The notes below the pieces were generated by a model that saw only the letters and a program-made list of their open reading frames with translations, did no database searches and was not told the origin of the DNA. Both the position numbers and the translations under genes were made by a program. A DNA stretch of 64,000 nt. It comes from Thermosulfurimonas sp. F29. Its GTDB lineage: Bacteria > Desulfobacterota > Thermodesulfobacteria > Thermodesulfobacteriales > Thermodesulfobacteriaceae. This document shows, piece after piece, positions 12,542 through 39,508 of this stretch; position 1 is the stretch's first letter; each line of letters starts with the position of its first letter. The DNA is taken from contig NZ_JAIFYA010000005.1 in the NCBI RefSeq assembly GCF_019688735.1, positions 1 to 64,000 of the forward strand, read 5' to 3'.

Positions 12542-12595
12542 GATTCCACCTCCTGCAATGAATTATGTTATATCCATTCCCGAGATAAAGTTTAT

Positions 12596-12724
12596 AGAGG
12601 GACAAGGACTCCATTTTTCGTAGGCTTGGAAGCCTCTATAGGAGTCTGTCCCTCTGTCCCTCAACTCCCAATTGGTTGGTTGGGCGCAAAAGCCCCTGCC
12701 AAACGGGAGGATGGAGCTGAGGGA
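12596..12724 (+). ncRNA. Candidate IS110 bridge RNA (two long stem-loops)
   Basis: The non-coding left end folds into two consecutive long hairpins. Hairpin 1 (12596-12655) pairs AGAGGGAC with GTCCCTCT and GGACTCC with GGAGTC around an inner AGGCT/AGCCT hairpin. Hairpin 2 (12657-12724) pairs TCCCTCA with TGAGGGA and CTCC with GGAG around an inner GGGC/GCCC hairpin. Two internal-loop structures upstream of the recombinase is the layout known for IS621-type bridge RNAs, with target- and donor-binding loops. AGGAGTC (12640-12646) is complementary to the element's right end GACTCCT. The role is inferred; no expression evidence. Confidence 0.6.
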
Positions 12725-12751
12725 CATATACCTTATCCCAGGAGGTAGCCT

Positions 12752-13936
12752 ATGTTCTACATAGGTATCGATGTCGCCAAAAATTCCTTCCAGTTCTGTA
12801 TCCTTCACCCACAAAAGGGAAAGCTCGTATCCAAAAACCTCCCCATGTCTTCCAAAGGCTTCGAAGACTTCCTCCAAACTCTCTCCGCCTATACCCCAAA
12901 CCATATCGTCCTTGAATCCTCCGGACGCTTCCACCTCCCTCTCCTCGCCTTCCTCCTGGACCAGGACTTCCGGGTATCCCTCCTCAACCCTAAAATGGTT
13001 CATCACTTCGTCCGGTTCGTCTCCGCTAACAACCCCTCTAAGTCCGATAAAAAAGACGCCTTCCTCCTGGCGCTCTTTGCCCTCTCCAATCCCCACCTCC
13101 TTAAACCAGCTACCCTCCCCTCCGAAACCAAACTCCTGGCCCGACAAATCCAAAAACTCAAACAGGAAATCGCCGAGGCCAAAACCCAAATCAAACACTC
13201 CCTCGCCGCCCTTTTCCCCGAAGCCGAAAAACACTTCAATGTCTTCTCTCGGGCCTTCCTTGAAATCCTCAGCCGCTACCCCTCCGCTAAAAGAATTGCC
13301 AAAGCCGGTTGGGGAAAAATAGACTATATCCTCTCCCGACTGCCGGGCCGTAAACCTTCCTTCTCCGCTCAAGACCTCGTGCAGGTGGCCCAAAACTCGG
13401 TGGGGATCTCTCATAAAGGCCTGGAAAAAATCCTCCAAATTTACATCCAAAAGATCTTCTTCCTCCAATCCATGATCGAAAAACTGGAAAAAGACCTCCA
13501 GACGGAGATCGAAACTACCATGAAAACTCAGCTGGAATGCCTCTCCTCCATAAAAGGCATCTCCCGCGACCTCGCCTCCAGGTTCCTGGCCGAAGTCGAA
13601 AACATAAAACGCTTCAGTAACGCCAAAAAACTGATCAAATATGCCGGAACAGATCCCGTGGTCAAACAATCCGGAAAATGGAAGGTCCGTATGAACATCT
13701 CCAAACAGGGAAATCCTTACCTTCGAAATATCCTCTTCCAGATGGCCGTAGGAACGGTCAAGTGGGAGAAAACTTTTCAGCATTACTTCCGAAGGAAATA
13801 CACCCAGTTCAGAAGCTATAAAAAAGCCATGATAGCCGTAGTTAACAAACTGATCCGGGTAATCTATGCCCTCTCTACTCGTAATCAATTCTTCGATCCT
13901 TCTAAACTTGCTCCTGCGGGGGTGCCCCATGCCTAG
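12752..13936 (+). CDS. IS110-family transposase/recombinase (DEDD), copy 1
   Basis: 394 residues. The N-terminal RuvC-like DEDD domain shows YIGIDVAKNSF (D), VLESSGRFH (E) and KSDKKDAFLLA (two D). A helical linker follows, then the Transposase_20 domain with IKGISRDLASRFLAEVE, IKYAGTDPVVKQSGK and the catalytic-Ser region MNISKQGNPYLRNILFQMA. All key residues are present, so the enzyme appears intact. The start at ATG 12752 has a strong AGGAGGT site 6 bp upstream. The protein is identical in sequence to the second copy at 43082-44266, implying recent movement. Confidence 0.95.
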   Translation: MFYIGIDVAKNSFQFCILHPQKGKLVSKNLPMSSKGFEDFLQTLSAYTPNHIVLESSGRFHLPLLAFLLDQDFRVSLLNPKMVHHFVRFVSANNPSKSDKKDAFLLALFALSNPHLLKPATLPSETKLLARQIQKLKQEIAEAKTQIKHSLAALFPEAEKHFNVFSRAFLEILSRYPSAKRIAKAGWGKIDYILSRLPGRKPSFSAQDLVQVAQNSVGISHKGLEKILQIYIQKIFFLQSMIEKLEKDLQTEIETTMKTQLECLSSIKGISRDLASRFLAEVENIKRFSNAKKLIKYAGTDPVVKQSGKWKVRMNISKQGNPYLRNILFQMAVGTVKWEKTFQHYFRRKYTQFRSYKKAMIAVVNKLIRVIYALSTRNQFFDPSKLAPAGVPHA

Positions 13937-13985
13937 CTATCAATTCCTGATAGTTGACTCCTTATAAGTTGTGTTTTTTAAAATA

Positions 13986-18841: not shown

Positions 18842-20026
18842 ATGAAATTAAGCTACAAGCTCAAAGTCTTCGCCAATAAGGGTAAAATTGCCGTCCTGGA
18901 AAGTTTGGCGAACTTCTGGGTTCGCAAGGTGAACGAGTACATCGTCCTTTACTGGCGGATGCCCGACTGGGAGATAAAGCTTGCGAAACCTCCTGCGGAG
19001 TTTCGGGGTTCCGGTTCCAAGCTTGAGAATCTGGCTTCGGTCAAAGCCTGGCAGATGGTAAGAGCGGTGCGGAAGAAAAAAAGAGGGCCAAAGGTCAAAC
19101 CGGTTTTGAAGAAGATTGAATTTGAGCTGGATGAGACGCTTTTCGCCTTTGGGGACTTCACCACGAAGGAGTTCGACCTCTGGATCAAGGCTTATTCTGG
19201 GGAGAAGGGCAAGCGGATAGCCATACCGGTCAAGAAGCATCGGCGGTTGAACTACTGGCTCAAGCGGGGAGCCAGGTTTCAGAAGACGGTGAAGTTCAAG
19301 AAGATAAACGGTGAGTGGTACGCGGTAGTGTTTCTCAGCCCACCGCCAAAGGAACCCAAAGGGGATGTTCCGGTGGTAGGAATGGATCTGGATTACACCA
19401 ATGGAGCGGTGGATTCTGCGGGAAGGGTCTGGTTTGACGAACGCTGGGTGAATCTCAGACAGCGAACCAAGTGGAGGCTTTACCCGGACGGGAACAATCC
19501 CCTCAAGCAGGAATTCAACCGATTGGCGAAGAGACTGGTGAATGAGTATGGGTGTCATTTAGCCTTTGAGAGGCTGGAATTAAGGGGCAAGCGAGGGAGA
19601 AGTAGAAAGTTTCGCCGGGACTACAAGAACCTACCCTATGGACACTTAGCCCGCCGGGTGAAGGTCCTGGCTGGTCTGGAAGGTTTCCGGACGGTCAGGG
19701 TCAACCCGGCGGGGACTTCGCAGACCTGCCCGGTGTGCGGACACAGGGAAAGGAGGAACCGAAAGGGAGAGGAATTTCGATGTGTGAGGTGTGGATTTTC
19801 GGCGCAGGCAGATGTGGTAGGTGCGGTCAACATTGCGATTCGGGCAGGCCAAAAGCATGGATTTCGGCCCGTGGTGGTCCGGGCCGTAGCCGAAGGGTGG
19901 AGGAGGCGAAGCATTCGGCCACCGGTGGAGCGCTTTGTCGTCTGGACTCTACTCCAGAGTAGGCCACCCGCCGATTTCCGCGGGTGTGATCCTCCGTGCC
20001 ATGCCTATCCGGTAAGCTACGGATAG
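18842..20026 (+). CDS. tnpB: TnpB RNA-guided nuclease (IS605 OrfB family)
   Basis: 394 residues. The RuvC-like active site appears intact: D182 in VVGMDLDYTNGA, E243 in HLAFERLELRG, D324 in SAQADVVGAVNIA. A four-Cys zinc ribbon (CPVCGH ... CVRCG) lies between the last two. The N-terminal about 170 residues are the basic wedge/REC part. Length is normal for TnpB (about 370-420). Related proteins cut DNA guided by an RNA from the element's right end. The stop overlaps the convergent subtilisin stop by 10 bp. Confidence 0.93.
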   Translation: MKLSYKLKVFANKGKIAVLESLANFWVRKVNEYIVLYWRMPDWEIKLAKPPAEFRGSGSKLENLASVKAWQMVRAVRKKKRGPKVKPVLKKIEFELDETLFAFGDFTTKEFDLWIKAYSGEKGKRIAIPVKKHRRLNYWLKRGARFQKTVKFKKINGEWYAVVFLSPPPKEPKGDVPVVGMDLDYTNGAVDSAGRVWFDERWVNLRQRTKWRLYPDGNNPLKQEFNRLAKRLVNEYGCHLAFERLELRGKRGRSRKFRRDYKNLPYGHLARRVKVLAGLEGFRTVRVNPAGTSQTCPVCGHRERRNRKGEEFRCVRCGFSAQADVVGAVNIAIRAGQKHGFRPVVVRAVAEGWRRRSIRPPVERFVVWTLLQSRPPADFRGCDPPCHAYPVSYG

Positions 20027-20031: not shown

Positions 20032-21546
20032 GTTAAAAACGGAGGAACGGTTGAGGAAGAGGTGGCGGCGGCAGGAGAGGTCCGGGCCGCAGAGAAGGAT
20101 CTCCTGAAGGCCCCTCTCCAGGGAGTCCCCCTCCAGGGAGGCACAATAAAGCAGCGGAGAGGCCCCGAGAGGGCCGGAAAAACTCCAGAGCGTCCGAAAG
20201 GAGACCCCCGTTTCGGAAAGGACGGTCTGGCGTAGATAGAGGGAAAGGGAGGAGGTCTGCGGGCTGAACACATAGGCACAGAAGAATTCCGGATGGCCCG
20301 GGGCCGGATAGACCAGCGCCTCGGACACCCCGGGGCCGTCCTCCTGCCCCTCCTGCACCCTCACCCTTACGGAGCCGACCTTGAGGGGGGAGAGGCGGTA
20401 AAGGTATATCTCCGCCTCTCCGGGGGAAAGACCGCGAAGGATAAGCCGCCCCTCCGAGGGGGAAAACTCCTCCACCGCCACTCTCCGGGGATCCGTAACC
20501 AGCACCTCGAGAGAGGGATCGGGGAGAAAGAAGACCGTTCTTTTCTCTCCGGAGCGAAGGAACACCTCCGAGGGGAGCAGGGGAAGATCCCGGGAAAACC
20601 AGGCCAGCAGGGCCCCCCAGACCGAAAGCCGGCCGAAACCGTAGTCCGTATCGTATCCGGGAGGGTCGGGATCCCCGGATCCCTCCGCCAGCAGGTAGCG
20701 CCAGAGCTCCGGGAAGAGTGCTTCCCCCGAAGGGACTTTCTCCATGAGAAGGGCCAAGGTGCCGGAGACGATGGCCGCGGCCAGAGAGGTGCCGCTCATG
20801 TAGGTGTATTCCCCGAAGATGGACGGAACGCGCAGGGATTGTCCGGGAGCGGCCAGGAAAAGCCCCCTTCCCCGGTTGGAGGAAGGGACGAGTTCCCCCG
20901 TAGGCCCGAAGGCGGCCACGGATATTACCCCCGGAACGGAAGCGGGGAAGTCCAGTTCCTCAAGCCCCTCGTTTCCCGCGGCCGCCACCACCGGAACACC
21001 CTTCCTCAGGAGGTCCTTCACCAGACGGGTCACCTCCCCGGAAGCCTCCGAGAGCACCAGACTCAGATTCACCACCACCGGCCCGTCGATCCTTTCCAGC
21101 AGGTCGAAAATGTACGCCAGAGCCCGTTCAAGGGCCGCGGTCTCGAAGAAGGACTCTCCGTCCCGATTGATCTTGAGAGGAACGATCTCGGCGCACGGAG
21201 CCACCTGAAGCACCAGACCGGCCGTGGCGGTGCCGTGACCCAGCCGATCGGTCACATCGGTGTCGTTGTCCCCGAAGTCGTAAGCCAGATCGAGACGGAG
21301 ATGACCCTCCAGGGCCGGATGATCGGGTTTTACCCCGGAGTCCACCATGACGACCGTAACCCCCCGCCCGCAGGCAAAAGCCCGGGCCTCGGAGATCCTT
21401 ATCGCGCTAAGCCACCAGTCTCCCTCCTGCGTGGGAAGGACCTCGGAGGCCGGAAACCAGCCCCCGGCCCACACCCCGAAACAGCGGCAACATATCCAGA
21501 AAACCAGCCACGCCACCCTCCGCCTCATCCTCCGGATTTTTTGCAA
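20017..21546 (-). CDS. Secreted subtilisin-like serine protease (S8)
   Basis: About 509 residues. The catalytic triad is complete: D69 in TVVMVDSGVKPDH, H104 in RLGHGTATAG, S254 in YMSGTSLAAAIVSG; AAAGNEG carries the oxyanion Asn. The N-terminus is a hydrophobic signal (VAWLVFWICCRCFGVWAGG) with no obvious long propeptide. The C-terminal about 220 residues are beta-rich with a few Cys and no named domain. The start is unclear: TTG 21546, ATG 21528 and GTG 21516 are all possible, the GTG having GGAGG spaced upstream. The last five codons lie within the TnpB element's terminal hairpin. Likely exported, and a plausible T2SS cargo. Confidence 0.88.
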   Translation of the reverse strand: MQKIRRMRRRVAWLVFWICCRCFGVWAGGWFPASEVLPTQEGDWWLSAIRISEARAFACGRGVTVVMVDSGVKPDHPALEGHLRLDLAYDFGDNDTDVTDRLGHGTATAGLVLQVAPCAEIVPLKINRDGESFFETAALERALAYIFDLLERIDGPVVVNLSLVLSEASGEVTRLVKDLLRKGVPVVAAAGNEGLEELDFPASVPGVISVAAFGPTGELVPSSNRGRGLFLAAPGQSLRVPSIFGEYTYMSGTSLAAAIVSGTLALLMEKVPSGEALFPELWRYLLAEGSGDPDPPGYDTDYGFGRLSVWGALLAWFSRDLPLLPSEVFLRSGEKRTVFFLPDPSLEVLVTDPRRVAVEEFSPSEGRLILRGLSPGEAEIYLYRLSPLKVGSVRVRVQEGQEDGPGVSEALVYPAPGHPEFFCAYVFSPQTSSLSLYLRQTVLSETGVSFRTLWSFSGPLGASPLLYCASLEGDSLERGLQEILLCGPDLSCRRHLFLNRSSVFNHTYP

Positions 21547-21737
21547 ATTTCATGCCAGCCTTTTAAAGCCTTGCGAATTAAGAAAGTTTTTATTTTTTTT
21601 GATCGATTCCGCAAAAATGTTCACTCGGACCGATATGATGGTCACATTTATGTAGAGTTAAAATAAATTTAATAATTTTTATTAATAAAGTTTATAAAAA
21701 TAAAAACAAACGAACGACGGGCTGAGAAGGACCGCCG

Positions 21738-21753
21738 GTAGCACGCGTGCTAC
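21738..21753. repeat. 16-bp perfect palindrome at the edge of the origin
   Basis: GTAGCACGCGTGCTAC reads the same on both strands. A half-copy, GTAGCACGCT, lies at 22190-22199 on the other side of the iterons, so the pair brackets the origin. Possible binding site for a Rep or partition protein. Confidence 0.6.
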
Positions 21754-21785
21754 GAAAGTCGAAAAAAGTGCCTATAGTTTGTTGT

Positions 21786-21822
21786 TTGTCTATATTTTGT
21801 CAAAAGTTGTCTATATATTGTC
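21786..21822. repeat. Two 16-bp near-identical direct repeats near the origin
   Basis: TTGTCTATATTTTGTC (21786-21801) and TTGTCTATATATTGTC (21807-21822) are spaced 21 bp apart, two helical turns, on the same face of the helix. A further TTGTCTG follows at 21830-21836. They look like a second set of protein-binding repeats next to the iterons. Confidence 0.6.
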
Positions 21823-21878
21823 TTATTATTTGTCTGTAGGGCGTTCAACCCCTTGAGCATCAAGGGATTCCGGGGATT

Positions 21879-21987
21879 TTCTGCCCTCATTTCATGATAG
21901 TTCTGCCCTCATTTCATGATAGTTCTGCCCTCATTTCATGATAGTTCTGCCCTCATTTCATGATAGTTCTGCCCTCATTTCATGATA
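21879..21987 (+). repeat. Five tandem 22-bp iterons
   Basis: The unit begins TTCTGCCCTCATTTCATG and ends ATAG. Copies start at 21879, 21901, 21923, 21945 and 21967, with the last one a base short. The period of exactly 22 bp (two helical turns) and identity between copies indicate initiator binding sites. There are no spacers, so it is not a CRISPR array. Confidence 0.92.
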
Positions 21988-21990
21988 CCC

Positions 21991-22059
21991 CTATCATGAA
22001 ATGAGGACACACCTCCCGAAACCCTTGATATTCCCGGGTGGTTCACTCATGAAATGAGG
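21991..22059 (-). repeat. Inverted iteron copies
   Basis: CTATCATGAAATGAGG (21991-22006) and ACTCATGAAATGAGG (22045-22059) are reverse-complement copies of the iteron core. Opposed iterons often allow Rep-dimer 'handcuffing' for copy control; that role is inferred. Confidence 0.75.
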
Positions 22060-22206
22060 TCAATTTTATGTGGAGTTGTAGATGTAATATTACATAAAAT
22101 ATAACACAATTTTGAAACCGAAATAAAGTAATTATAACACCGTTTATTTGATAATTACTATTTTACATTTTTGTAAAATTTTGCTTTGCGTAGCACGCTT
22201 TCTGCC

Positions 22207-22295
22207 CAAAATTTCCGGTTAAGTTCGGCTCCCGCGCTGGAGGGCTTCGCCCCCAAACCCCCGGGGTGCCTGTGGGGGCGGCCCTTCATTTTCTT
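22207..22295. repeat. Dispersed about 85-bp repeat, copy R1
   Basis: The segment starting with AAAATTTCCGG, with a central GCTTCGCCCCCAAACCCCCG, closely matches 39421-39508 (R3) and more weakly 31602-31672 (R2). It sits between the origin and the stop of the GspH-like gene. Confidence 0.75.
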
Positions 22296-22315
22296 CCTTC
22301 CACCTGCACCCGATG

Positions 22316-22789
22316 TCACCGGGGGACGGTCGGGGGCATCGGGAGCGGGCCCATCTGGGAGAGGGGGAAGTAGAGGACGAAACTGGTTTGTCTCTCCCGG
22401 TTAACGAATTCCAGTTCCCCGCCGCTGCTGAAGCCCTCGGCCCATATGATAAGGGCAGGACGACCGTCGGGAAGCTCGAGGAGCCCCCGTTCCCTGACCT
22501 CAATCTCCTCAGGGATGTTTAGCCCGGAGAGGGGGCGGGAATCGGGAAACCGATCGGTGGGGAAAAGTAGCAGGGCCCTCCGTCGGGGATCGACGACCAC
22601 GAGAAGATTACGGCCGGAGGAAACCGCCCGCACCTCCGCCCGCAGCAGGAATCGCATGACCCTTACCCGAAAATCCCTTTCCCCCCACGGGACCGGAAGC
22701 CTCGGCAGGACCACCGCCGCAAGCATCCCCAGCAACACCAGTACCACCAGAACCTCAAAAAGAGTCAGCGCTTTTGCTTTTTTATTCAT
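22316..22789 (-). CDS. gspH: T2SS minor pseudopilin GspH-like
   Basis: 157 residues. A short basic leader and the type III prepilin motif ALTLFEVLVVLVLLGMLAAV (cleavage after A, Glu at position 5) identify a pseudopilin. After the helix, ARVMRFLLRAEVRAVSSGRN-like and ALLLFPTDRFPD sequence resembles GspH. Minor pseudopilins cap the T2SS pseudopilus in the periplasm. It is 156 bp downstream of wzm on the same strand, in an AT-rich gap, and is the last gene before the origin. Confidence 0.8.
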   Translation of the reverse strand: MNKKAKALTLFEVLVVLVLLGMLAAVVLPRLPVPWGERDFRVRVMRFLLRAEVRAVSSGRNLLVVVDPRRRALLLFPTDRFPDSRPLSGLNIPEEIEVRERGLLELPDGRPALIIWAEGFSSGGELEFVNRERQTSFVLYFPLSQMGPLPMPPTVPR

Positions 22790-22945
22790 ATATGTTGAGA
22801 CATATTTATTTATTTAAGCGAATTATAAAATTTTTGCACAAAAAAGTAAAAATGATTTTTTATCGTCCGGTCCGGAATTTTGGAGGCCGGCCGGATCCGC
22901 GCGGTTAGTCCTGACATGGAGACCGTTCTCCACGGAGGAGGGGGT

Positions 22946-23707
22946 TCAGAGGACATCGGGAAACCCCTTTTTCAATCGGCTAAACAAGAGGTAAGAAGCG
23001 GAGAGGAGAACGGCGCCTTCAGCGGAGCTCAGGAGGATCTCCCTCCACGGGAATTCCCGAAGGATGAGAAGCCTCTGCCAGGCTTCCACCACCGGAGTGT
23101 AGGGATTCAGGGCACACAGAAACCGCAGCTTCGGGGGAAGCATTTCCCTGGTGTAGAGGACCGGAGTGGCGTAGAACCATAGGGTAAGGAATAGCGGGAT
23201 CATTTGAAGGAGGTCCCGTATGTAAACGGAAACGGCGGAGACGAACAGCACCGAGGCCAGGGTGATGAGAAAACCCGGTACGACCAGGATGGGACAGAAC
23301 AGGAATATCCCGTGAACCCCCTCCCGGTAGGCCATTATGGCCAGCAAAAGGGGCAGGGCGGCGAGTCCCATGAGGTAGGAGGCGCAGGTGGAGGCCATGG
23401 GAAGAACCTCCGTGGGAAATCTTATCTTGGTTATGAGATGGGCCTGGTGAACCAGGCTTCCACCGCCTCTGCCCACCCCTTCGGCATGCCAGCTCCAGGG
23501 GATATAGCCCGCGAGAAAAAAACGCAGGAAATCCTCCTCCCGTCCCATCAGATGGATCTTGACCTTAAATACCCACTGGAACAGGAAAAGATAGGTTACG
23601 ATCTGCAGGAACGGTTGCAGAAAGAACAATACAGGCCCCAGTATGGAGCCGGCAATGTAGCTCTTAATTTCGCGCTTTATGAAGGACTTAAGAAGACCTG
23701 TCTTCAT
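22946..23707 (-). CDS. wzm: ABC-2 polysaccharide export permease (Wzm-like)
   Basis: 253 residues with about six membrane segments: ILGPVLFFLQPFLQIVTYLFLF, FLRFFLAGYIPWSWHAEG, SYLMGLAALPLLLAIMAY, IFLFCPILVVPGFLITLASVLF, MIPLFLTLWFYATPVLYTREMLP, EILLSSAEGAVLLSASYLLF. The NPYTPVVEAWQRLL and YATPVLY motifs are typical of O-antigen export permeases. It would pair with the Wzt-like ATPase at 5573-6724, 16 kb away. It overlaps the upstream pseudopilin gene by 20 bp, so it is embedded in a T2SS operon. Confidence 0.92.
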   Translation of the reverse strand: MKTGLLKSFIKREIKSYIAGSILGPVLFFLQPFLQIVTYLFLFQWVFKVKIHLMGREEDFLRFFLAGYIPWSWHAEGVGRGGGSLVHQAHLITKIRFPTEVLPMASTCASYLMGLAALPLLLAIMAYREGVHGIFLFCPILVVPGFLITLASVLFVSAVSVYIRDLLQMIPLFLTLWFYATPVLYTREMLPPKLRFLCALNPYTPVVEAWQRLLILREFPWREILLSSAEGAVLLSASYLLFSRLKKGFPDVL

Positions 23708-24113
23708 AAGACCGTTGCAGGAGTCCTTTTCCGCCCGCAGCCTCGTCCCCGGAACCTTCCCCGTCTTCCATTATCGAAAATATCCAGAAGGGCGTCTTTT
23801 TGATTCGTATAATCCATACGGAAATTTTCCCTTCCTCCGGCCCCTCCTCTGTTTCCACCTTAATTTTAATTTCCCCTCTTCGGACTTCCACTGTTTCGTC
23901 TTTCCCGTCATTCCATTTTTGGGGCTGTTTTTTTATTGATATTAGTTTATTTTTGTAATATCCCGATCCTGATAATAACTCGTCGGTCCTTTTGTAATAA
24001 AAATTGTTCTGGATCAGGAAATACAGGGTGATTCCAAGGGTCATGGAGACGAGCCAGGTCCCCACCAGCACCTCCAGCAACACGAAGCCTTTGCGGCTAC
24101 AGGTTCCACTCAT
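23688..24113 (-). CDS. T2SS pseudopilin (GspI/GspJ-like)
   Basis: About 141 residues from ATG 24113. CSRKGFVLLEVLVGTWLVSM carries the prepilin cleavage site (after G) with E5; a helix and a lysine/glutamate-rich short C-terminal part follow (VRRGEIKIKVETEEG). The upstream extended reading frame lacks a leader and lies inside the TonB-receptor gene. The start overlaps that gene by 17 bp; the end overlaps wzm by 20 bp. The distinction between GspI and GspJ is not safe from sequence alone, since a second J-like gene is at 49924. Confidence 0.75.
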   Translation of the reverse strand: MSGTCSRKGFVLLEVLVGTWLVSMTLGITLYFLIQNNFYYKRTDELLSGSGYYKNKLISIKKQPQKWNDGKDETVEVRRGEIKIKVETEEGPEEGKISVWIIRIKKTPFWIFSIMEDGEGSGDEAAGGKGLLQRSYEDRSS

Positions 24114-26070
24114 GATTGATTCCAAGATATATCCGGAAGCCCGGATCCGCCACGGTGGATAGATAGGAGGCGTGACGAGGAGCCCGGTCGAAGAGATCTT
24201 TAACCAGAAGAAAAAGGGAGGTTCGGTCACCGAGCCGCCAGCGCACCGAGGCGTCCACGGTGATGCTTGAGTTTATTGATGTTTTTGAATTTTTGCGTAA
24301 ATCGTGAAAAGTTCTGTTGCTTAAAAAATTTATTCTAGTAATGATGTTTAAATTTCTTGATGCTTTGATGTCAAGGAGGAGATTGCCCGTAAGGTGGGGG
24401 CCTGAGGCGTAGGGGCGACGGTAGGTGTGGTAGAAGGGGGTCCAGTTATTTGTGGCGGGATCGTAGATCATGTATTCCAGAACCCGGTACCTTTCGTTCG
24501 ATCCCCAGCTGTTTACCACGGAGAGGTTGGCGGTGAGGTGGAGGGAGGGAGAATATTGCAGTGAAAGCTGGGTTTCCAGCCCCAGGAAATGTCTCCTTAT
24601 GGGGTGAGAGAAACCGCCCAGAGGGTGTTCCAGGACCATGCGTTTTACGAGGGTGTAGAAGGGCGTTATGCGCCAGGAGAATCGGGGATGGGGTCGAGTC
24701 AGGAGCTCCAGGGAAAGGGTGTAGGCCCTTTCCGGCGAGGGATTTCGATCCAGAAATTCGGCCGCGTACGGAGTGCGATAGGCTGACCCGTAATTCAACT
24801 TTATTCCCCAGCGGGAGGAAGGCCTGAAGTATAATCCCGTTGAAAACGACCAGCCGGGGCGGTACTCCGTGTGATCGTCAAATCTCAAGCCTCCGTACCA
24901 TTCCAGGGACCGAAAACGATGTCTCGCCTGAAAAAAGAAGGAGAGGAGTTCGGTGTCGAAGGATTTTCGGTCCACCAGAGGTCGGAAGTAGGGCATCTCT
25001 TTTAGATACTGGGACAGAAGTCCTCTAACCCTGATGACGGCGTCCCGGGTGCGGTTCCTCCGGTAGCCCACGCCGAGGGTAAACATTCCCTTTCCCCCGG
25101 CCCATTCCCTGGAGAGGATTCCTTCAAGGCCCAGGGTTCGGGATTTCTGCGAAAGATGGAAGTCCATTTCCTCCCGTTCCGGATGCGTGCTTTCCCAGTA
25201 GGCCTTAAGGTCGAGGGCCCATGGACCGAAGGGGTGCCGGAATTCTCCTTTTAGAAAATTAACGGGATATTTTCTCCTCCCGGGCCAGTCCAGATTCAGA
25301 AAGGAATCGTAACCCTTAAAGGATTTCCGGCCGGAGGAAAACCGTCCCACGATACGGATTCCGGGCCAGCCCTCCAGATTGAAGACCAGCTCCTCCAGCT
25401 CGTCCGTATGCTCTCCGGTGAACTTCTTTCCCCATAGGGAAAAAGTCATTGTCCCCCGCCAGTACTCGCCGGGATACGAAAGGCCGGCCACGATTTTCCG
25501 TTCCGAAAAAGGAGAACCCAAGAAAGTTTTAAGTCTTAAGCGTTTTCCGGAGGGGTGTTTGGGAATGAGATTCACTATACCCGCAAAGGCGTCGGGCCCC
25601 CACAGGACGGATCCCGGTCCCAACACTATTTCTATCCGTTCCAGGGCCTCGAGATTCAATTCCTCATCCAGAAGGTTTAAAGTCTTCGTGCTGTCCGAGG
25701 TTAGCGGGACTCCGTCGTAAAGAAAGAGCACCCCCTCGGGAACACCCCTTAAATAGGGACGGCTGCCCCACCAGACCCGGCCCATGTAAAAACCCGGTAC
25801 GAAGGAAAGCGCCTCGCCCAGGGTCAGAAATCCGTATCTTTCGAGGTCTTCGGCCGTCAAAATGTAAGTGGAACCGGGAGGAGAAAAAGGATTTTCACTT
25901 TTGGAGGACAGGACGGTCAGGGCCTGCGGCTCCCCCCAGAAAATACCTTCGTATGGAGACGAACCGGAGGAATAGCCCGGAGATATTCTGGAAAAAGAGG
26001 CCAACAATAAAAACAGACAGTAACTCAGCACGATCCTGTGACGGCTTACACTATGGTGGTAGGGCATCAA
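24097..26070 (-). CDS. TonB-dependent outer-membrane receptor
   Basis: 657 residues. A signal peptide (RIVLSYCLFLLLASF) leads into a TonB-box-like region (ALTVLSSK). The plug domain follows: GSTYILTAEDLERYGFLTLGEAL, RPYLRGVPEGVLFLYDGVPL, ALERIEIVLGPGSVLWG. A long beta-barrel with alternating strands completes it. The barrel ends in YLGINHEWNL rather than the usual Phe. It lies between gspE (4-bp overlap) and a pseudopilin gene. Ligand unknown; such receptors take up siderophores, cobalamin or glycans. Its presence in a T2SS operon is odd. Confidence 0.92.
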   Translation of the reverse strand: MMPYHHSVSRHRIVLSYCLFLLLASFSRISPGYSSGSSPYEGIFWGEPQALTVLSSKSENPFSPPGSTYILTAEDLERYGFLTLGEALSFVPGFYMGRVWWGSRPYLRGVPEGVLFLYDGVPLTSDSTKTLNLLDEELNLEALERIEIVLGPGSVLWGPDAFAGIVNLIPKHPSGKRLRLKTFLGSPFSERKIVAGLSYPGEYWRGTMTFSLWGKKFTGEHTDELEELVFNLEGWPGIRIVGRFSSGRKSFKGYDSFLNLDWPGRRKYPVNFLKGEFRHPFGPWALDLKAYWESTHPEREEMDFHLSQKSRTLGLEGILSREWAGGKGMFTLGVGYRRNRTRDAVIRVRGLLSQYLKEMPYFRPLVDRKSFDTELLSFFFQARHRFRSLEWYGGLRFDDHTEYRPGWSFSTGLYFRPSSRWGIKLNYGSAYRTPYAAEFLDRNPSPERAYTLSLELLTRPHPRFSWRITPFYTLVKRMVLEHPLGGFSHPIRRHFLGLETQLSLQYSPSLHLTANLSVVNSWGSNERYRVLEYMIYDPATNNWTPFYHTYRRPYASGPHLTGNLLLDIKASRNLNIITRINFLSNRTFHDLRKNSKTSINSSITVDASVRWRLGDRTSLFLLVKDLFDRAPRHASYLSTVADPGFRIYLGINHEWNL

Positions 26071-27545
26071 TTTTTTGTCGTTCTTACAATTTCTTCAAAG
26101 GTAGTCCACCCTTTAGCCGCTTTAAGTAGACCATCCTCAAAGAGACGCCTGAATCCTCTTTTCCTGGCCCATCCGTAAAACGATTCCGGACTTTTGTTCT
26201 CCAGAATAAGATCGCGCAATTCGTCATCTACCGGGAAGATTTCATACACGGCTATTCGTCCCAGATATCCCGTGCCGTAGCACAGTGCGCATCCTTTTCC
26301 CCGGCGGTAATGCACCGGGAGCTCCGGGAGTCCAGCCTCGGACAGGGCTTTGAGAAAGGGACCGGGAGGGGGGGTTTCCTTACCGCATTCAGGGCAGACC
26401 TTCCTCACCAGTCGTTGAGCCACGAGTCCTATCACCGAAGCGGCGATAAGGTAGCGCTCTATCCCCATGTCCCGCAGACGGGTTACGGCGGAGAGAGCGT
26501 CCCGGGTGTGAAGGGTGGAAAAAACCAGGTGTCCGGTAAGGGCGGCCTGCATGGCTATTTCCGCCGTCTCTTGATCCCTTATTTCGCCCACCAGAATTAT
26601 GTCCGGATCGTGTCGTAGAATGGCTCTTAGGGCGGAGGCGAAGGTTAAGCCTATTTCCGGTTTGACTTGTATCTGACTGAGTCCGGGAATTTGATATTCC
26701 ACCGGATCCTCTATGGTGATGATCTTCACCTCCGGACGCTGAAGGTATCTAAGGGCCGCATAGAGGGTGGTGGTCTTACCCGAGCCCGTGGGACCGGTCA
26801 CCAGAATTATACCGTTGGGTCTGGAGAGAAGGTCACGAAAGATTTCCAGAGAGTCGTCTTCGAATCCCAGATTCTCCAGATTTAAGAGCTTTTCGTTTCT
26901 GGTCAGAAGACGAAGAACCACGCCTTCCCCGTACAAAGTAGGAATGACCGACACGCGTACATCGAGATCCTTACCACCCACCCGGAAACGAAACCCTCCG
27001 TCCTGGGGAAGGCGGTGTTCGGCAATGTTCAGACCGGCCATGAGTTTGATGCGGGATATTACCGGTGCGTGCAGCCTGCGAGGTAGATGTTCCTTCTCCC
27101 TCAGGAGGCCATCCACACGGAATCGAACCGTTAGCCCATCCTTAAAAGGCTCAAAATGGATGTCCGTGGCCCTCTGTTCGGCCGCCTCTCGCAGCAGGCG
27201 ATTCACCAGTCTTATGACCGGAGCTTCCGAGGCGAGGTCCTTTAGATGGGTTTCCTCTTCATCCTCTCTGTAGTCCTCTATTTCCAGACTTTCCTCTCTG
27301 CCTTCGTAATATTTCTGTATCAGCTCAAGGATCAATTCCTCGCTGGCCACATATATCTTTCCGGAAAGGCCCACTTTCTTAATGACGATATCCGCGCGCG
27401 TTATTTCCTCCATAGAAGGGATGAGAATGACGAAGGAACCGTTTTGAAAAAAGGGAAAAACCTTCAGCGTTCTTAAAAGGGCAGGATTCAACCCCTCCAC
27501 CGGAGATATTTCCCCGGAAAGGAGATGTTCGGAGGCTAATTCCAT
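26067..27545 (-). CDS. gspE: T2SS assembly ATPase GspE
   Basis: 492 residues. Walker A GPTGSGKTTT (251-260), Asp box and Walker B in IILVGEIRDQETAEIAM, and the His box TGHLVFSTLHTRDA are complete. The zinc-binding tetracysteine CPECG ... CALC is present before the C-terminus. The N-terminal about 100 residues are shorter than in typical GspE. It powers pseudopilus assembly at the inner membrane. It lies 3 bp from gspG and overlaps the TonB-receptor gene by 4 bp. Confidence 0.97.
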   Translation of the reverse strand: MELASEHLLSGEISPVEGLNPALLRTLKVFPFFQNGSFVILIPSMEEITRADIVIKKVGLSGKIYVASEELILELIQKYYEGREESLEIEDYREDEEETHLKDLASEAPVIRLVNRLLREAAEQRATDIHFEPFKDGLTVRFRVDGLLREKEHLPRRLHAPVISRIKLMAGLNIAEHRLPQDGGFRFRVGGKDLDVRVSVIPTLYGEGVVLRLLTRNEKLLNLENLGFEDDSLEIFRDLLSRPNGIILVTGPTGSGKTTTLYAALRYLQRPEVKIITIEDPVEYQIPGLSQIQVKPEIGLTFASALRAILRHDPDIILVGEIRDQETAEIAMQAALTGHLVFSTLHTRDALSAVTRLRDMGIERYLIAASVIGLVAQRLVRKVCPECGKETPPPGPFLKALSEAGLPELPVHYRRGKGCALCYGTGYLGRIAVYEIFPVDDELRDLILENKSPESFYGWARKRGFRRLFEDGLLKAAKGWTTFEEIVRTTKN

Positions 27546-27548
27546 ACT

Positions 27549-27971
27549 CTAATCCCAGCTGGTTATATCGGCGTTTTCTCCTTCTCCTCCCGGCTGTCCA
27601 TCCGCTCCGTAGCTCCAGAGATCGTATTCTCCGTGTTCACCGGGAGAACGATAATGGTAGGGGCGTCCCCAGGGATCCACAGGGATCTTCCTTTTTTTCA
27701 GGTAAGGCCCCTGCCACCTGCTTCGGGCTTCCTCGTCCTCCGGGGGCTCTATGAGAACCCTCAGACCTTCCTCGGTGGTGGGGTAACGCCCCACATCCAG
27801 ACGGAACTGATCCAGGGCGGCCTCGAGAAGGGCGATCTGACTCCTGGCTATCTCTCCCTTGGCCTTTCCCAGGCGGCCCACCACCCTTGGGCCCACCAGC
27901 GCGGCCAGTAAACCGAGAATTATCAGAACTACGAGAAGTTCCAATAGAGTGAATCCCCGTCCCCTTTTCAT
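27549..27971 (-). CDS. gspG: T2SS major pseudopilin GspG
   Basis: 140 residues. GRGFTLLELLVVLIILGLLA gives the prepilin site and E5. RVVGRLGKAKGEIARSQIALLEAAL, LDVGRYPTTEEGLRVLIEPP, and DPWGRPYHYRSPGEHGEYDLWSYGADGQPGG with the calcium-binding C-terminal loop identify the major pseudopilin. Its start overlaps the stop of the replication initiator gene by 4 bp. Confidence 0.97.
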   Translation of the reverse strand: MKRGRGFTLLELLVVLIILGLLAALVGPRVVGRLGKAKGEIARSQIALLEAALDQFRLDVGRYPTTEEGLRVLIEPPEDEEARSRWQGPYLKKRKIPVDPWGRPYHYRSPGEHGEYDLWSYGADGQPGGEGENADITSWD

Positions 27972-29215
27972 GTTCTTTTCTCCTCGAAAAGTTTTCGTCT
28001 AAGGATAAAACGCATCTGCATTCTTACCAGAGAGGGTTCGTCCTTTAAATCCTCGGGAAGTTCCGATAGAGCCTGTGCTCTTAATTCCGCAATTTCCCTC
28101 TCGGATAGTTTTTTCAGACATTCCTCAACTTTTATCCGTAATCGCTTTTCCTCATCTAAAACCTCCTCCATATCCGGGAACATGGTGGCCTGTGCAATGT
28201 TGTCCTCCCACCATTCCCTGGCCCAATCCTCCTTCAGGGCCTTTATCAAAAAGATCCTGTAGCTGCCCGGTTTTTTCACCTTTTCGTTGGCATACAGGAT
28301 GTTTCGCCTTACGAATTCTTCGTCGTGGCGATCCAGAGCCCTTTTTATGGCCTCAATGAGGGTTTGCTTTTTTCGCTCGGAGGGAGGCAACAGTTTTATT
28401 AAAGACTCCAGTAGGTGATCATGGTGTCTTTTTTTACCTTTGCAAAACATTAAAATAGTTTTGTTTTTGAATTTTTCTACTTCCAGATTTATTTTTAGGT
28501 CTGTATGTTCGTTAATTCTGTTTATTGCTGTTTTTATTTTGGTTATTATGTGAGAAGGATACTTTTTTTTCATTGGAATTTTTTCTGCTAATTTGGTTAC
28601 TTCTATTCTCCACTCTTCTCTGTTTTGAAAGTTTTTTATCAGTATTTCGTAAAGTCTTACGGCCAGAGGCGATCTTAGGGCTTTTATTTTATCGAAATCT
28701 AAATATTTGAAATATGTGGAATTTTTTATGCGGGTTAGCCATTCTCTGTTGAATCTTATGTAAAGTTTTTTGCTTTCTTCCTCCAATTTCCAGGTATCAA
28801 TTATGCCGAAACTCAGTGTTATATACTTTTTGCCGTCGTAAAAGGAACCATGGTAGCGAACCCCCACCATTTTCCATCTTTCCAGACTGTCCTCGAGTCG
28901 GCGATAATCTACGGGTCTGATGCTACGGAAACCGCAATTTTTCAGAATTTCATATCTGGAAAGCTCGATTTCTTCTTTCCATCCCTCTTTTTGAGATTTG
29001 TACAACAAATAGAACAGAAATATGGCATCCAGTTTTGTGGGGGGTTTATATCCACATCGATATTCGTAACCCTCTCTATCTTTCCATATGAAGCCGATGT
29101 CATTTTCCAGTTTGGACACCAGTTTTTCGTCCTGCATCCACAGGGGATACTCCAGCATATTGATGTCTTGCTTGATGTTTTTCTCAAAAGACTTTACGGT
29201 CTCCCCGGTTTTCAT
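27968..29215 (-). CDS. repA: Plasmid replication initiator (RepA/TrfA-like winged helix)
   Basis: 415 residues, AT-rich gene. The middle (about 90-260) fits the winged-helix initiator fold of the RepA (RPA)/TrfA-type family: YRRLEDSLERWKMVGVRYHG, FGIIDTWKLEEESKKLYIRF, LAVRLYEILIKNFQN, VTKLAEKIPMKKKYPSHIITKIK. The C-terminal third is helical and charged. Rep proteins bind iterons such as those at 21879-21987 and open the origin. The stop overlaps gspG by 4 bp and the start is 72 bp after the histidine kinase stop, so rep sits inside a T2SS operon. Confidence 0.8.
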   Translation of the reverse strand: MKTGETVKSFEKNIKQDINMLEYPLWMQDEKLVSKLENDIGFIWKDREGYEYRCGYKPPTKLDAIFLFYLLYKSQKEGWKEEIELSRYEILKNCGFRSIRPVDYRRLEDSLERWKMVGVRYHGSFYDGKKYITLSFGIIDTWKLEEESKKLYIRFNREWLTRIKNSTYFKYLDFDKIKALRSPLAVRLYEILIKNFQNREEWRIEVTKLAEKIPMKKKYPSHIITKIKTAINRINEHTDLKINLEVEKFKNKTILMFCKGKKRHHDHLLESLIKLLPPSERKKQTLIEAIKRALDRHDEEFVRRNILYANEKVKKPGSYRIFLIKALKEDWAREWWEDNIAQATMFPDMEEVLDEEKRLRIKVEECLKKLSEREIAELRAQALSELPEDLKDEPSLVRMQMRFILRRKLFEEKRT

Positions 29216-29287: not shown

Positions 29288-30619
29288 TCATGCGGCGGGA
29301 AGCCGTATTTCGAATTCCGCCCCACCCAGGTGAGGGCATTTTCGGACCTCTATCGAACCGTTCAGATTTTCTATGATTCGCTTTACCACGGTAAGCCCCA
29401 ATCCGGCCCCTTTACTTTTCGTGGTGAAGAAGGGTTCGAAAATCATGATCGTGTACTCATCGGGAATTCCCCGACCGTCGTCGCAAACCAGGATGGATAC
29501 ATAATCGCCTTTTGAATGCACCGTTAAGAGGACATTCCGGGCCTCAGCCTCGAAAGCGTTCCTTATCAGGTTGTAAAATACCTGTACCAAAAGATCGGGA
29601 TCGGTCTTTATGTTTAAGTCTTTTTTGATATTGATATGAATCTTTCTGGATATGCTCAACATTTGTAATTTGTGTACGGTGTGTAGGATTGTTGATATTT
29701 TTATTGATTGCAAGTGCGGCTTGATAGGCTTTGCATATATTAGCAGATTTTTTACCAGAACATCGATCCTTTTGATTTCTTCTTCCAGAAATGATGCAAG
29801 TCTCTTTCGTTCTTCATGAGGAAGGTCCTTTTTCAGCAGATCCAGAGCCCCCTGCATAATCCCCAGAGGGTTTTTTATTTCGTGGGCAGCAATGGCGGCG
29901 AACTTTCCCAATTCCGCCAAAAATTTCTGTTCCGCCATTTGCCGGTACGCTTTTTGAAGGTCGTTCTGATATTTTTGTATAGCCTGTAGCATTTCATTGA
30001 ATGCTTTAGCCAATTCTTCCGTTTCCTTGAGTCCGTGCCCAGAAATTCGGAGGTCTATCTTGCCCCGGGAGATCTCGTTTGCGGCTTTAAGGAGAGCCTC
30101 AAGTGGAATAGCTATTGCTCTGTAAAGCAGGATATATATCAATATGCTGGCTAGCATAGCGATTGCACTTATTATTGACGCACTTATTATAAATATTTTT
30201 TTGATTGCTAATCTTAGAGGTTCTTTTGTATAGTACAATTTCAGCTCTCCTATTTTTGATGGTGATAAAAATAGTTCTTCTTCTGTTGATGTGATTTGGA
30301 CAGGCATTTTTATGTAAAATTTTGTGTCCGTTATTCCTCTTTTTATCCATATTTCTCCATTCGTCTTTGTTACAGTTGCTCCTATTATTTCTCTATTTTT
30401 CAAAACTTCTTCTATAATTTTGTTTGCGGTTTCTTTATTGTTTATTATAATGAATAATGATAAATTCCTGGATGTTTGTTTGGCCAAAAAAAGCAACCTT
30501 TTTGTGTAGTATAGTTCTAAAAAATTTGATACCAGATAATGGGCCATTGCAAACGAAATAATAACTATAATGAATAATATCAATGCCAGTATCAGGAGCA
30601 TTTTCCTTTTTAAGGTCAT
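29288..30619 (-). CDS. Membrane sensor histidine kinase
   Basis: About 443 residues from ATG 30619, where ATGA overlaps the upstream gene. Membrane segment 1 is MLLILALILFIIVIISFAMA, a periplasmic part follows (30-140), then membrane segment 2 (KIFIISASIISAIAMLASIL), HAMP, H-box IAAHEIKNPLGIM (His246) and HATPase motifs FYNLIRNAFEA, CDDGRGIP and FTTKSKGAGLGLTVVK. This NtrB-like kinase probably acts on the NtrC-type regulator at 33244. The input is likely the binding protein encoded directly upstream. Confidence 0.93.
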   Translation of the reverse strand: MTLKRKMLLILALILFIIVIISFAMAHYLVSNFLELYYTKRLLFLAKQTSRNLSLFIIINNKETANKIIEEVLKNREIIGATVTKTNGEIWIKRGITDTKFYIKMPVQITSTEEELFLSPSKIGELKLYYTKEPLRLAIKKIFIISASIISAIAMLASILIYILLYRAIAIPLEALLKAANEISRGKIDLRISGHGLKETEELAKAFNEMLQAIQKYQNDLQKAYRQMAEQKFLAELGKFAAIAAHEIKNPLGIMQGALDLLKKDLPHEERKRLASFLEEEIKRIDVLVKNLLIYAKPIKPHLQSIKISTILHTVHKLQMLSISRKIHINIKKDLNIKTDPDLLVQVFYNLIRNAFEAEARNVLLTVHSKGDYVSILVCDDGRGIPDEYTIMIFEPFFTTKSKGAGLGLTVVKRIIENLNGSIEVRKCPHLGGAEFEIRLPAA

Positions 30620-31545
30620 TTTTTCTCCACAAAGAATGGAACATGTAAAACACAATTCTTTTGCGCTGTAAAATTCATCTTTCCCACTAGTTTTCCTGCT
30701 GAAAAATAATCCGGCTTAAAGCAGATGCCATTTTTATACTGACAGTATAATGGTCCGAATCCTATGATGTATTTTTTGTTTAAAGCGCTTATTTTTAAAA
30801 TTATGGAAGCAACCGGATACATGAGTAATTTCTCTTCCGGATGGATATATATAATATCGTCTTTATTGTTATAAATGCTCTTGATCAATTCTTTTGTGTT
30901 CCGGCATTTTGTGATCTGGAAGTTCAATTTTGTTTTTTGTTTTATTATGTTTTTTATTTCTTTTAATGAAAGACAATCATCCATACAGATCGCTTTTATT
31001 CCGGAATTGTGGTCGAATTTTAGCGTATCTAAGGCTTTTAAGAGAAGGGAGGCTTCGTGGTCCGGCGATGGTTTTATGTAAATTCCGCAAGCTTTTTCCT
31101 TAATAGGTTCAAAAAGCAAGCATGCATATATTGATGCCTTCGAATTTATTTTCATATCGGTTTGAAGATACTGTATCGCTTTCGGGCCGACGGCCAGAAT
31201 GACATCCGGTTTGAAGTATTTCAGTTCTGTCCTTAAAAAGGGGGTTTCGGGTAATAAGACGGCCTTGATCTTTCGTTGCGGAAAATTTCTGGAGCTTTCC
31301 TCTTTAAAGCCCCGGTAAAAGTCATAGAAGGGTTTAAGTTCGGAGGAGAGAATAACGAGCACTTTTTCGGCATGGACATATTTTTCGGCATGGACATAAT
31401 GACATATAGAGAAGCAGAAGATGAAAATCAGGAGGGATAGACGGGCCAGGTCTCTTTTTCGTGGGACGCCCCCTCTCCAATGAAGCAGGGTAATACCGAT
31501 TTTTCTCCTCCTTTTTTCATTTCTTGAATTGAACAGTTTCTGCAA
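30616..31545 (-). CDS. ABC-type substrate-binding-like protein paired with the kinase
   Basis: About 310 residues. A hydrophobic segment (LARLSLLIFIFCFSICHYV) leads to a periplasmic-binding fold of the PF04392-like type: VLVILSSELKPFYDFYRGFKEE, DVILAVGPKAIQYLQTD, then GIYIKPSPDHEASLLLKAL and FSAGKLVGKMNF. It has no transporter genes nearby and overlaps the kinase gene, so it may serve as a sensing subunit. The start is uncertain: TTG at 31545 is used, but the only good AAGGAGGAG lies downstream. An 18-bp tandem duplication repeats YVHAEK at the cleavage site (31363-31398). AT-rich. Confidence 0.75.
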   Translation of the reverse strand: MQKLFNSRNEKRRRKIGITLLHWRGGVPRKRDLARLSLLIFIFCFSICHYVHAEKYVHAEKVLVILSSELKPFYDFYRGFKEESSRNFPQRKIKAVLLPETPFLRTELKYFKPDVILAVGPKAIQYLQTDMKINSKASIYACLLFEPIKEKACGIYIKPSPDHEASLLLKALDTLKFDHNSGIKAICMDDCLSLKEIKNIIKQKTKLNFQITKCRNTKELIKSIYNNKDDIIYIHPEEKLLMYPVASIILKISALNKKYIIGFGPLYCQYKNGICFKPDYFSAGKLVGKMNFTAQKNCVLHVPFFVEKK

Positions 31546-31601
31546 AGCCGATCGTTAAATATAATCTTTGGTTTCGGATGTTGCTTTTGTATTTGTACAA
31601 C

Positions 31602-31672
31602 CAAGATTTCCGATTAAGTCCGGCTCCAGCGCTGGGGGCTTCGCCCTCCAAAACCCCAGGGGAGGGCGTTCG
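31602..31672. repeat. Dispersed repeat, copy R2 (divergent)
   Basis: Matches R1/R3 through AAGTCCGGCTCC and GCTTCGCCCTCC, then diverges. Located in the divergent promoter region between the two long operons. The rest of this 333-bp gap holds a GC-rich inverted repeat and a promoter. Confidence 0.65.
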
Positions 31673-32661: not shown

Positions 32662-33237
32662 GTGCTCCTGGCCCTGATTTTAGTGTTATTGTTGACCGTG
32701 GAATTTTTTTCCTCGGAATCCATAAGAAGATACCGGGAGGCCTCCCTTTTAAATACTGCCTTCCTGGATCACTCCGAAGCGACCATGTTAAAAGATTCTT
32801 TATTGGAAATCGTACTGAAAAACCCCTTTCACGGATCCGTAGAGTATAAACTCGACGAATTTAAAGCCGTGGTCAGAATTGAAGACAGTAGCGATAAACC
32901 GAATCTAAACAATCTTTCCCTTCAAGAATTATCCGATATTTTGCTGGATACGGATTTGCCCGAAGAAAGCATAGAAGGAATACTTCAGAATTTCGAGGAC
33001 TTGAAGGCAAACAACCAAACAATTGGAAGTCTGGACGATGTCGTTAAATATAAATTAATAGATGCTTATTCATTCTGGATAAAACCCGGACTGTACAGAT
33101 ATTTTACTGTCTATTCGGAGGAATCGTTTAGAATTTTTATGGCTATCTATTATCACGGCAGGCGGTATGTTTTTTTTATTATCGTTGGACCTCATAACAA
33201 AATTTTATTTGAAAAAAAGAATAGCCTGGAGTTCTAG
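32662..33237 (+). CDS. GspK-like minor pseudopilin or inner-membrane protein
   Basis: 191 residues starting at GTG 32662, 6 bp after the previous stop. The N-terminus is a hydrophobic helix (LLALILVLLLTVEFFSSES). The VRIEDSSDKPNLNNLSLQEL motif and a following helical segment resemble GspK (the 'D..GK.NLN' region). The usual short prepilin leader is missing because an in-frame stop lies 2 codons upstream. In the next frame the preceding codons read KVTG, which would supply a leader end only after a frameshift. Assignment is tentative; position between dsbC and ntrC in a T2SS operon supports it. Confidence 0.55.
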   Translation: MLLALILVLLLTVEFFSSESIRRYREASLLNTAFLDHSEATMLKDSLLEIVLKNPFHGSVEYKLDEFKAVVRIEDSSDKPNLNNLSLQELSDILLDTDLPEESIEGILQNFEDLKANNQTIGSLDDVVKYKLIDAYSFWIKPGLYRYFTVYSEESFRIFMAIYYHGRRYVFFIIVGPHNKILFEKKNSLEF

Positions 33238-33243
33238 ATAGTT

Positions 33244-34602
33244 ATGGCCAGGATTCTTGTGGTGGATGACGAAGAAAAGATGTGTGAAATATTGAAAATG
33301 ATGTTGAGTTTTAAGGGGCATTCAGTTGATGTAGCTTACAATGGTCGTGAAGCTCTGGAGAAGATTAGAGACAGTTTTTATGATCTGGTTATTGCCGACA
33401 TAAAGATGCCGGAAATGGACGGCAGGAAATTGCTGGAGGAGATCAAGAAGCTCGAAATAGCGATACCGGTGGTGTTTATTACGGCTTACGCTTCGGTGGA
33501 GGACGCCGTGGAGGCCATGAGGGCCGGGGCCGTAGATTACATACCGAAGCCCTTTACGGAGGAGAGGATCTTTCTCACCGTGGAAAGGGCCCTGGGTATA
33601 TCCAGACTCATATCCGAAAAGGAGGCTCTGGCCAGGGAACTGGAGAGGAAGACCTTTCCCGAGGACATAGTGTGTGTCTCTCCGGCCATGCGGAAGGTGA
33701 TGGACCTTGTGGAGAGGGTAGCCGCGCAGAGGAACACCACCGTCCTGATCCTGGGAGAGTCGGGGGTGGGGAAGGAGGTGGTGGCGAAACATCTCCATCG
33801 AAGGAGCCCGCGGGCGAAGGGGAGGTTTGTGGCTATAAATTGTGCGGCGGTGCCCGAGAACCTGCTCGAGGCCGAGCTTTTCGGTTACGAACGGGGAGCC
33901 TTTACCGGGGCGGCGAGCCGGAAGAAGGGAGTGTTCGAAGTGGCCCATGGTGGGACCGTGTTCCTGGACGAGGTGGGGGACATTCCCCTGGAGGCGCAGG
34001 CCAAGCTTTTAAGGGTGCTACAGGAGCGGAAGATACAGAGACTCGGTGGGCTGGAAGAGATCCCCATCGATGTGAGGATCGTCGCGGCCACCCACAAGGA
34101 CCTGAAGGCCATGGTGGAGGAAGGGACCTTTCGGGAGGACCTGTATTACAGGATCAATGTTTTTCCCATCTACATTCCCCCTCTCCGGGAGAGGCGGGAA
34201 GACATAATTCCGCTGGCCGAACATTTTATCCGCCGGTTCGTGGGGCCGAAGGTCTCGGGTCCGTTGCTCACGCCGGGGGCGAAGAAACTCCTGTTGAGTT
34301 ATTCCTTCCCCGGCAATGTGCGCGAGCTGGCCAATGCCTGCGAAAGGGCCCTAATTCTGGCCGGAGGGGAATTGCCCCTGACGGTGGAACATTTTGATTT
34401 TCTTTACGCTCAGTCTCCCGGAAGCAGGTCCCGACGGTTCGAACTGCCGCCGGAAGGGATTTCCCTGGAGGAACTGGAAAAGGAATTGATTCGCCAGGCC
34501 CTGGATCGCACGGGGGGTAATCAGAGCGCCGCGGCCAGGCTTCTCGGTCTCACCCGATCGAAGTTTCGCACGCGCATGAAAATGCTCGAGGAAGATAAAT
34601 GA
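33244..34602 (+). CDS. NtrC-family sigma-54-dependent response regulator
   Basis: 452 residues. Receiver domain with D52 in ADIKMPEMDG, acidic pair VVDDEE and Lys in YIPKPF. Central AAA+ domain with Walker A GESGVGKE (171-178), GAFTGA (218-223) for sigma-54 contact, and Walker B GGTVFLDEVGD. A Fis-type HTH ends the protein (GGNQSAAARLLGLTRSKFRTRM). The likely partner is the kinase at 29288-30619, transcribed divergently. Its stop overlaps the parA start by 4 bp. Confidence 0.96.
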   Translation: MARILVVDDEEKMCEILKMMLSFKGHSVDVAYNGREALEKIRDSFYDLVIADIKMPEMDGRKLLEEIKKLEIAIPVVFITAYASVEDAVEAMRAGAVDYIPKPFTEERIFLTVERALGISRLISEKEALARELERKTFPEDIVCVSPAMRKVMDLVERVAAQRNTTVLILGESGVGKEVVAKHLHRRSPRAKGRFVAINCAAVPENLLEAELFGYERGAFTGAASRKKGVFEVAHGGTVFLDEVGDIPLEAQAKLLRVLQERKIQRLGGLEEIPIDVRIVAATHKDLKAMVEEGTFREDLYYRINVFPIYIPPLRERREDIIPLAEHFIRRFVGPKVSGPLLTPGAKKLLLSYSFPGNVRELANACERALILAGGELPLTVEHFDFLYAQSPGSRSRRFELPPEGISLEELEKELIRQALDRTGGNQSAAARLLGLTRSKFRTRMKMLEEDK

Positions 34603-35351: not shown

Positions 35352-35364
35352 CAGGGAGGCAATC

Positions 35365-39379: not shown

Positions 39380-39420
39380 ATATTAGCATCTACCGGTTGG
39401 GAGAAAAGACCGGGAAAGCC

Positions 39421-39508
39421 CAAAATTCCCGGATAAGTCCGGCTCCCGTGCTGGGGACTTCGCCCCCAAACCCCCGGGGTGCCTGTGGGTGCGGCTCTTC
39501 GCTTTCTT
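39421..39508. repeat. Dispersed about 85-bp repeat, copy R3
   Basis: Nearly the same as R1 (22207-22295), including CAAACCCCCGGGGTGCCTGT. It lies just upstream of the gspM-like gene start. Confidence 0.75.

Follow-up and report, generated by a model that had tools for sequence, protein, structure and literature searches.

A probable iteron-controlled replication origin on a circular 69.6-kb plasmid of Thermosulfurimonas sp. F29

A repeat-rich, non-coding region at positions 21738–22200 of a 69,636-bp contig from Thermosulfurimonas sp. F29 raises the question of whether the contig is a plasmid that starts its replication here and, if so, which initiator protein serves it. The stretch of DNA that was analysed, hereafter the window, comprises bases 1–64000 of this contig. 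A first-pass annotation had taken the repeats for the iterons of an iteron-controlled replicon and the window for plasmid-borne, but it had not located the initiator gene. Our analysis indicates that a circular plasmid of about 69.6 kb very probably has its vegetative origin (oriV) in this region and that it would replicate in theta mode under iteron control through its own Rep protein. The assignment to a known origin class, the standard iteron-controlled origins, is well supported, and the locus is a new member of that class with a moderately unusual gene arrangement. The features on which the analysis turns are the following.

21738–21753, no strand assigned: palindrome GTAGCACGCGTGCTAC, the left edge of the putative origin, with a CGCGCG tract as its aligned counterpart in two related origins
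21786–21834, forward strand: TTGTC repeats, proposed as the repeats of the DNA unwinding element (DUE) and common to the related origins L028 and L029 in fewer copies
21850–21866, no strand assigned: small palindrome CCCTTGAGCATCAAGGG
21879–21988, forward strand: iterons, five tandem units of 22 bp, proposed as Rep binding sites, with a GATAGTTCTsCCC block that recurs in iterons belonging to related Reps
21973–22006, no strand assigned: 34-bp inverted repeat, a candidate Rep-dimer or operator-like site
22044–22062, reverse strand: second inverted iteron core, CACTCATGAAATGAGGTCA
22063–22180, no strand assigned: AT-rich stretch on the right-hand side of the iterons (78–85% AT in 40-bp bins), a less likely alternative DUE
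27968–29215, reverse strand: rep, encoding a 415-aa replication initiator with two predicted winged-helix domains (Rep3_N match)
34599–35351, forward strand: parA, encoding a Walker-type partition ATPase
35365–35577, forward strand: gene for a 70-aa ribbon-helix-helix (RHH) protein, a candidate centromere-binding partner of ParA

The 22-bp array consists of five copies of TTCTGCCCTCATTTCATGATAG, with units 1–4 identical and unit 5 deviating at its final base only. It is by far the top tandem array of the window (TRF score 218, compared with 51–72 for the remaining rows), and five direct repeats of this length in a non-coding region fit the range of approximately 17–22 bp expected of iterons in Rep_3-class origins. 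Within the units, a 13-bp core, CCTCATTTCATGA, has seven exact sites, five of them direct and two inverted (21994–22006 and 22047–22059), in agreement with the five tandem iterons and two inverted cores reported by the first-pass annotation. Allowing up to 2 mismatches added no further site across the 64-kb window, where shuffles average 1.7 chance sites, and in the whole 2.35-Mb genome the core occurs outside the cluster only as two distant, chance-like sites with 2 mismatches, with no exact site elsewhere. Together with the first inverted copy, the core of the final iteron makes up the 34-bp inverted repeat, which is perfect and has arms of 15 bp around a 4-nt loop, CCCC. The flanking palindrome of the earlier reading is also real; it is perfect over its 16 bp and has a half copy, GTAGCACGC, at 22190–22198. 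No sigma-70-like promoters were found within the origin. Just beyond this region, a GC-rich non-coding element of about 90 bp with hairpin potential (22204–22295) was considered as a part of the origin and rejected, its copies occurring also on other contigs of the genome: the plasmid holds two more (31601–31662 and 39418–39508), and at least five partial copies lie on the other contigs.

The candidate initiator gene lies on the same molecule, 6 kb from the iterons and reading toward the origin. Its product scores above the curated cut-off for Rep3_N, the sole match to this family in its own genome, and a search of 40 other genomes of the order found none. As a structure model, we used one built from three sequences (mean pLDDT 69.8); a fold from the single sequence, with a pLDDT of 44, was set aside. 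Approximately residues 59–260 of the model align with mini-F RepE (8AC8, Z 12.4, rmsd 6.2 Å, 178 residues; 1REP, Z 12.3) and likewise with R6K Pi in its iteron-bound form (Z 11.0, 5.7 Å, 188 residues), and RctB was a further match (Z 8.6). The first unrelated rows, at a Z of about 8.5, fall below those of RepE and Pi. Given the large rmsd, which would fit two domains that are mobile relative to each other, the alignment supports a two-winged-helix architecture for the modelled Rep and not its fine detail. When solved structures were searched by sequence only, no meaningful match to Rep was returned. Near rep itself, loosening the iteron core to as many as 4 mismatches uncovered no site, that is, no iteron-like operator there.

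The best evidence for an iteron origin is comparative. Querying genome_contigs with a two-sequence alignment of Rep led to two relatives with 44–45% identical Reps, one (L028) in a MAG of Candidatus Desulfaltia (Thermodesulfobacteriota) and the other (L029) in a MAG of the Anaerohalosphaeraceae (Planctomycetota), and it is on these two that the comparison of origins rests. Both carry about six 22-bp repeats, the array ending approximately 50 bp upstream of rep. Their units differ from that of the F29 plasmid in one half, and the block GATAGTTCTsCCC is common to all three. With the iteron regarded as two halves, GATAGTTCTGCCC and CATTTCAT, L029 has 12 of the 13 bases of GATAGTTCTGCCC in common with the plasmid and L028 has 11 of 13; when the unit was shuffled 20,000 times, these identities were reached in 9 and 118 cases, respectively. 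Among 395 genomes of the phylum, a two-unit iteron pattern was present only in the plasmid's own genome and in that of L028, which are also the two genomes with a strong Rep match (E < 1e-80); the pattern was derived from the matching sequences themselves, and its absence elsewhere is the part that counts as independent evidence.

Aligning the three origins places a CG-rich element, a T-rich TTGTC zone and the iterons in the same order in each. This association of iteron type with Rep type in three lineages supports the assignment of the iterons to this Rep, and the conserved block likely marks the half of the iteron that Rep reads. The F29 plasmid differs in the position of rep, which is 6 kb off and overlaps a secretion gene, whereas in both relatives the gene follows directly after the iterons, and the inverted copies were not seen there. 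The iteron-controlled replicon of the first-pass annotation is borne out by the Rep3_N initiator on the same molecule and by the homologous rep genes of two other lineages, each of which is immediately preceded by homologous iterons. It had also proposed searching related plasmids for the 22-bp unit; the iteron DNA had no match in the plasmid collection. In that collection, tblastn with Rep recovered only distant initiators of 21–37% identity. The single-sequence Rep query found no close relatives in genome_contigs or viral_contigs, the alignment query found none in viral_contigs, the phage collection held no Rep relatives, and the iteron pattern had no match in viral contigs.

Where such an origin would open is suggested by the zone to the left of the iterons. 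Here five TTGTC pentamers are set at spacings of 11, 10, 11 and 12 bp on the T-rich strand, followed by the second palindrome between this zone and the iterons; both features were absent from the first-pass annotation. A five-TTGTC chain was reached by none of 2000 dinucleotide shuffles, and neither the rest of the contig nor any of 20 local contig shuffles contains a comparable one. A T-rich region with repeats adjoining the iterons is as expected of a Rep_3-class origin, melting itself being a prediction. In addition, the motifs known from DUEs include TTGT and T-rich repeats, and TTGT and TTATT are DnaA single-strand motifs in E. coli (PMC10797057); both of the latter occur in the TTGTC zone, TTATT at 21823. 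The likely unwinding element is the helically phased TTGTC array, and not the AT-rich stretch that follows the iterons. The first-pass annotation had pointed to that stretch, which is indeed present and is richer in AT than the left zone. As the true unwinding element, it is unlikely: in the relatives the corresponding side is just the gap of about 50 bp before rep, while the T-rich zone on the left is conserved. No DnaA box was found between 21500 and 22300 with TTWTNCACA or TTATCCACA (up to 2 mismatches), a consensus of the E. coli type that may not be that of the host. Such boxes are common, and not universal, in iteron-controlled Rep_3-class plasmid origins.

The repeats must also be weighed against a role in partition, as the plasmid has a ParA ATPase gene followed by a small RHH gene, as in type Ib-like systems. 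Near parA no tandem array was found, and the TTGTC array would be a remote candidate centromere. RHH centromere arrays have a spacing of about 11 bp, which the phasing of the TTGTC motifs at 10–12 bp resembles, and a count of five is far above chance. It is nevertheless improbable that this array is an RHH centromere beside a genuine iteron origin, since the motifs are at the same place in the two aligned related origins and repeats of the TTGT and T-rich kind already have a known role in unwinding (PMC10797057). For the 22-bp repeats themselves, a corresponding role as the partition centromere (parS/parC) of the 70-aa protein, with the origin elsewhere, for example near rep, is very unlikely. 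The ParA/RHH pair does exist on the plasmid, and RHH proteins often have direct-repeat arrays as their centromeres, as in ParR- and omega-type systems. A distance of 12 kb, however, separates the par genes from the repeats; in both relatives, iterons that share the period and the block stand directly upstream of rep and not of parA; and neither the window nor the tail of the contig has another repeat array that could serve Rep.

The plasmid status of the contig follows from its ends. The last and first open frames fuse exactly in frame into one 320-aa protein, which has an unbroken Radical_SAM match over residues 11–179, across the junction at residue 126, and then a SPASM match; bases are apparently neither missing nor duplicated at the join. 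Because the join is exact, in frame and inside a single radical-SAM/SPASM gene, the 69,636-bp contig is almost certainly a closed circle. This supplies the circularity check that the first-pass annotation had proposed, with the contig closing on itself and not joining the chromosome. The size of the contig, the initiator on the same molecule, the ParA/RHH pair and the window's lack of any tRNA or Rfam match likewise agree with the window being plasmid-borne. GC skew is weak, with a detrended minimum at 18.8 kb, near the origin, and a maximum at 41.5 kb, which is not opposite it. Displacement of rep from the iterons and an operator-like inverted repeat with no neighbouring rep gene could be taken for signs of an integrated element or chromosomal segment with a relic origin, but this is highly improbable for a contig that closes in frame, with an intact rep and a window free of tRNA and Rfam matches.

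For the plasmid origin, we infer a mechanism in which Rep monomers would bind the five iterons and open the TTGTC zone next to them, on their left side. Loading of the host's helicase and polymerase, and then theta replication, would follow. The inverted repeat with which the array ends on the right, and likewise the additional inverted core, may act as sites for Rep dimers or for origin pairing (handcuffing), thereby braking copy number. Precedents exist for the melting step: RepE is known to grip one T-rich strand of the DUE while bound to iteron dsDNA (PDB 8AAN; PMC10797057), and TrfA binds one DUE strand sequence-specifically (PMC4081077). Against the oriV reading stands the distance of 6 kb between rep and the iterons, two elements that adjoin each other in both relatives. 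The negative search for E. coli-type DnaA boxes in 21500–22300 and the weak GC skew belong on the same side.

Of the nearest known systems, the L028 and L029 modules resemble the F29 origin in Rep, in the 22-bp iterons and in the order of the elements. Mini-F RepE/oriS and the R6K Pi/gamma origin resemble the F29 origin in the two-winged-helix Rep fold, in tandem iterons of similar length, in adjacent T-rich repeats and in inverted core copies. In contrast to these, rep is not next to the iterons here, no DnaA box of the E. coli-type consensus was found, the sequences paired in the fold alignment are just 13–15% identical, and the C-terminal helical part of Rep (residues 270–415) has no match. 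In RK2, the origin and the initiator gene are separate loci, and the iterons include opposed copies. The F29 plasmid shares both traits with RK2/RP4 oriV–TrfA, together with repeats in the DUE (PMC4081077). Its DUE repeats are TTGTC pentamers at 10–12 bp, however, whereas those of RK2 are TAAACnTTnTTTT 13-mers; no E. coli-type DnaA boxes were found and no TrfA family model matched Rep.

The unusual side of the locus is its gene arrangement. Type II secretion genes (pilins, gspE, gspG, gspD, a pilN-like gene and gspF) occupy 22316–28000, 32662–38823 and 47112–49111, and are thus spread over approximately 27 kb, with rep and par set among them. ATGA overlaps join the stop codon of rep to the start of gspG, the stop of the response-regulator gene upstream of parA to the parA start, and the stop of the RHH gene to the start of gspD. 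In three genomes of the order, which we take to be Thermodesulfatator-like, the homologues form one compact cluster, gspE-gspG-gspF-pilN and then gspD, which in the one single-contig genome among them lies on the sole contig; no homologues of rep, ParA or the RHH gene were found in the stretches of these genomes that were compared. A 3.7-kb contig from another family of the order (L025, G038:C59) carries at its end, in positions 1–84, the first codons of a close rep (79% over 28 residues), with an 86% identical gspG at 2903–3325. This contig is probably from a related plasmid with the same rep–gspG linkage. On other contigs of the F29 genome, the best GspE-like matches are 43–50% identical and are probably PilB-type paralogues.

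These overlaps permit a tentative, and on balance doubtful, proposal that plasmid maintenance is wired into secretion. On this view, translation of rep and parA–RHH, which lie apart from the origin, would be coupled to that of regulatory genes and of genes for type II secretion. If true, plasmid copying and inheritance would answer to the same two-component signal as secretion, and the rep fragment linked to gspG in the other family would suggest that the arrangement has been kept. A histidine kinase gene (29288–30655) lies just upstream of rep, and the gene for an NtrC-type response regulator (33244–34602) just upstream of parA; the two may form one split two-component system.

The locus thus provides a matched initiator and iteron set from what is, partly by inference, a thermophilic Thermodesulfobacteriota lineage, and such a set could be the starting point for a vector that replicates in organisms for which genetic tools are scarce. 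The analysis moreover puts the type II secretion and surface-glycan genes of the host on a plasmid.

Two further elements were observed in the window. Copies of a 1418-bp sequence, 99.9% identical, are located at 12549–13965 and 42879–44296 with antiparallel ORFs of 455 and 394 aa; neither Pfam nor NCBIfam gave a match to the 455-aa frame, and the duplicated element is probably an insertion sequence. A TnpB-like protein with a Cas12f1-like TNB domain is encoded at 18842–20026, where its gene overlaps the end of a subtilase gene.
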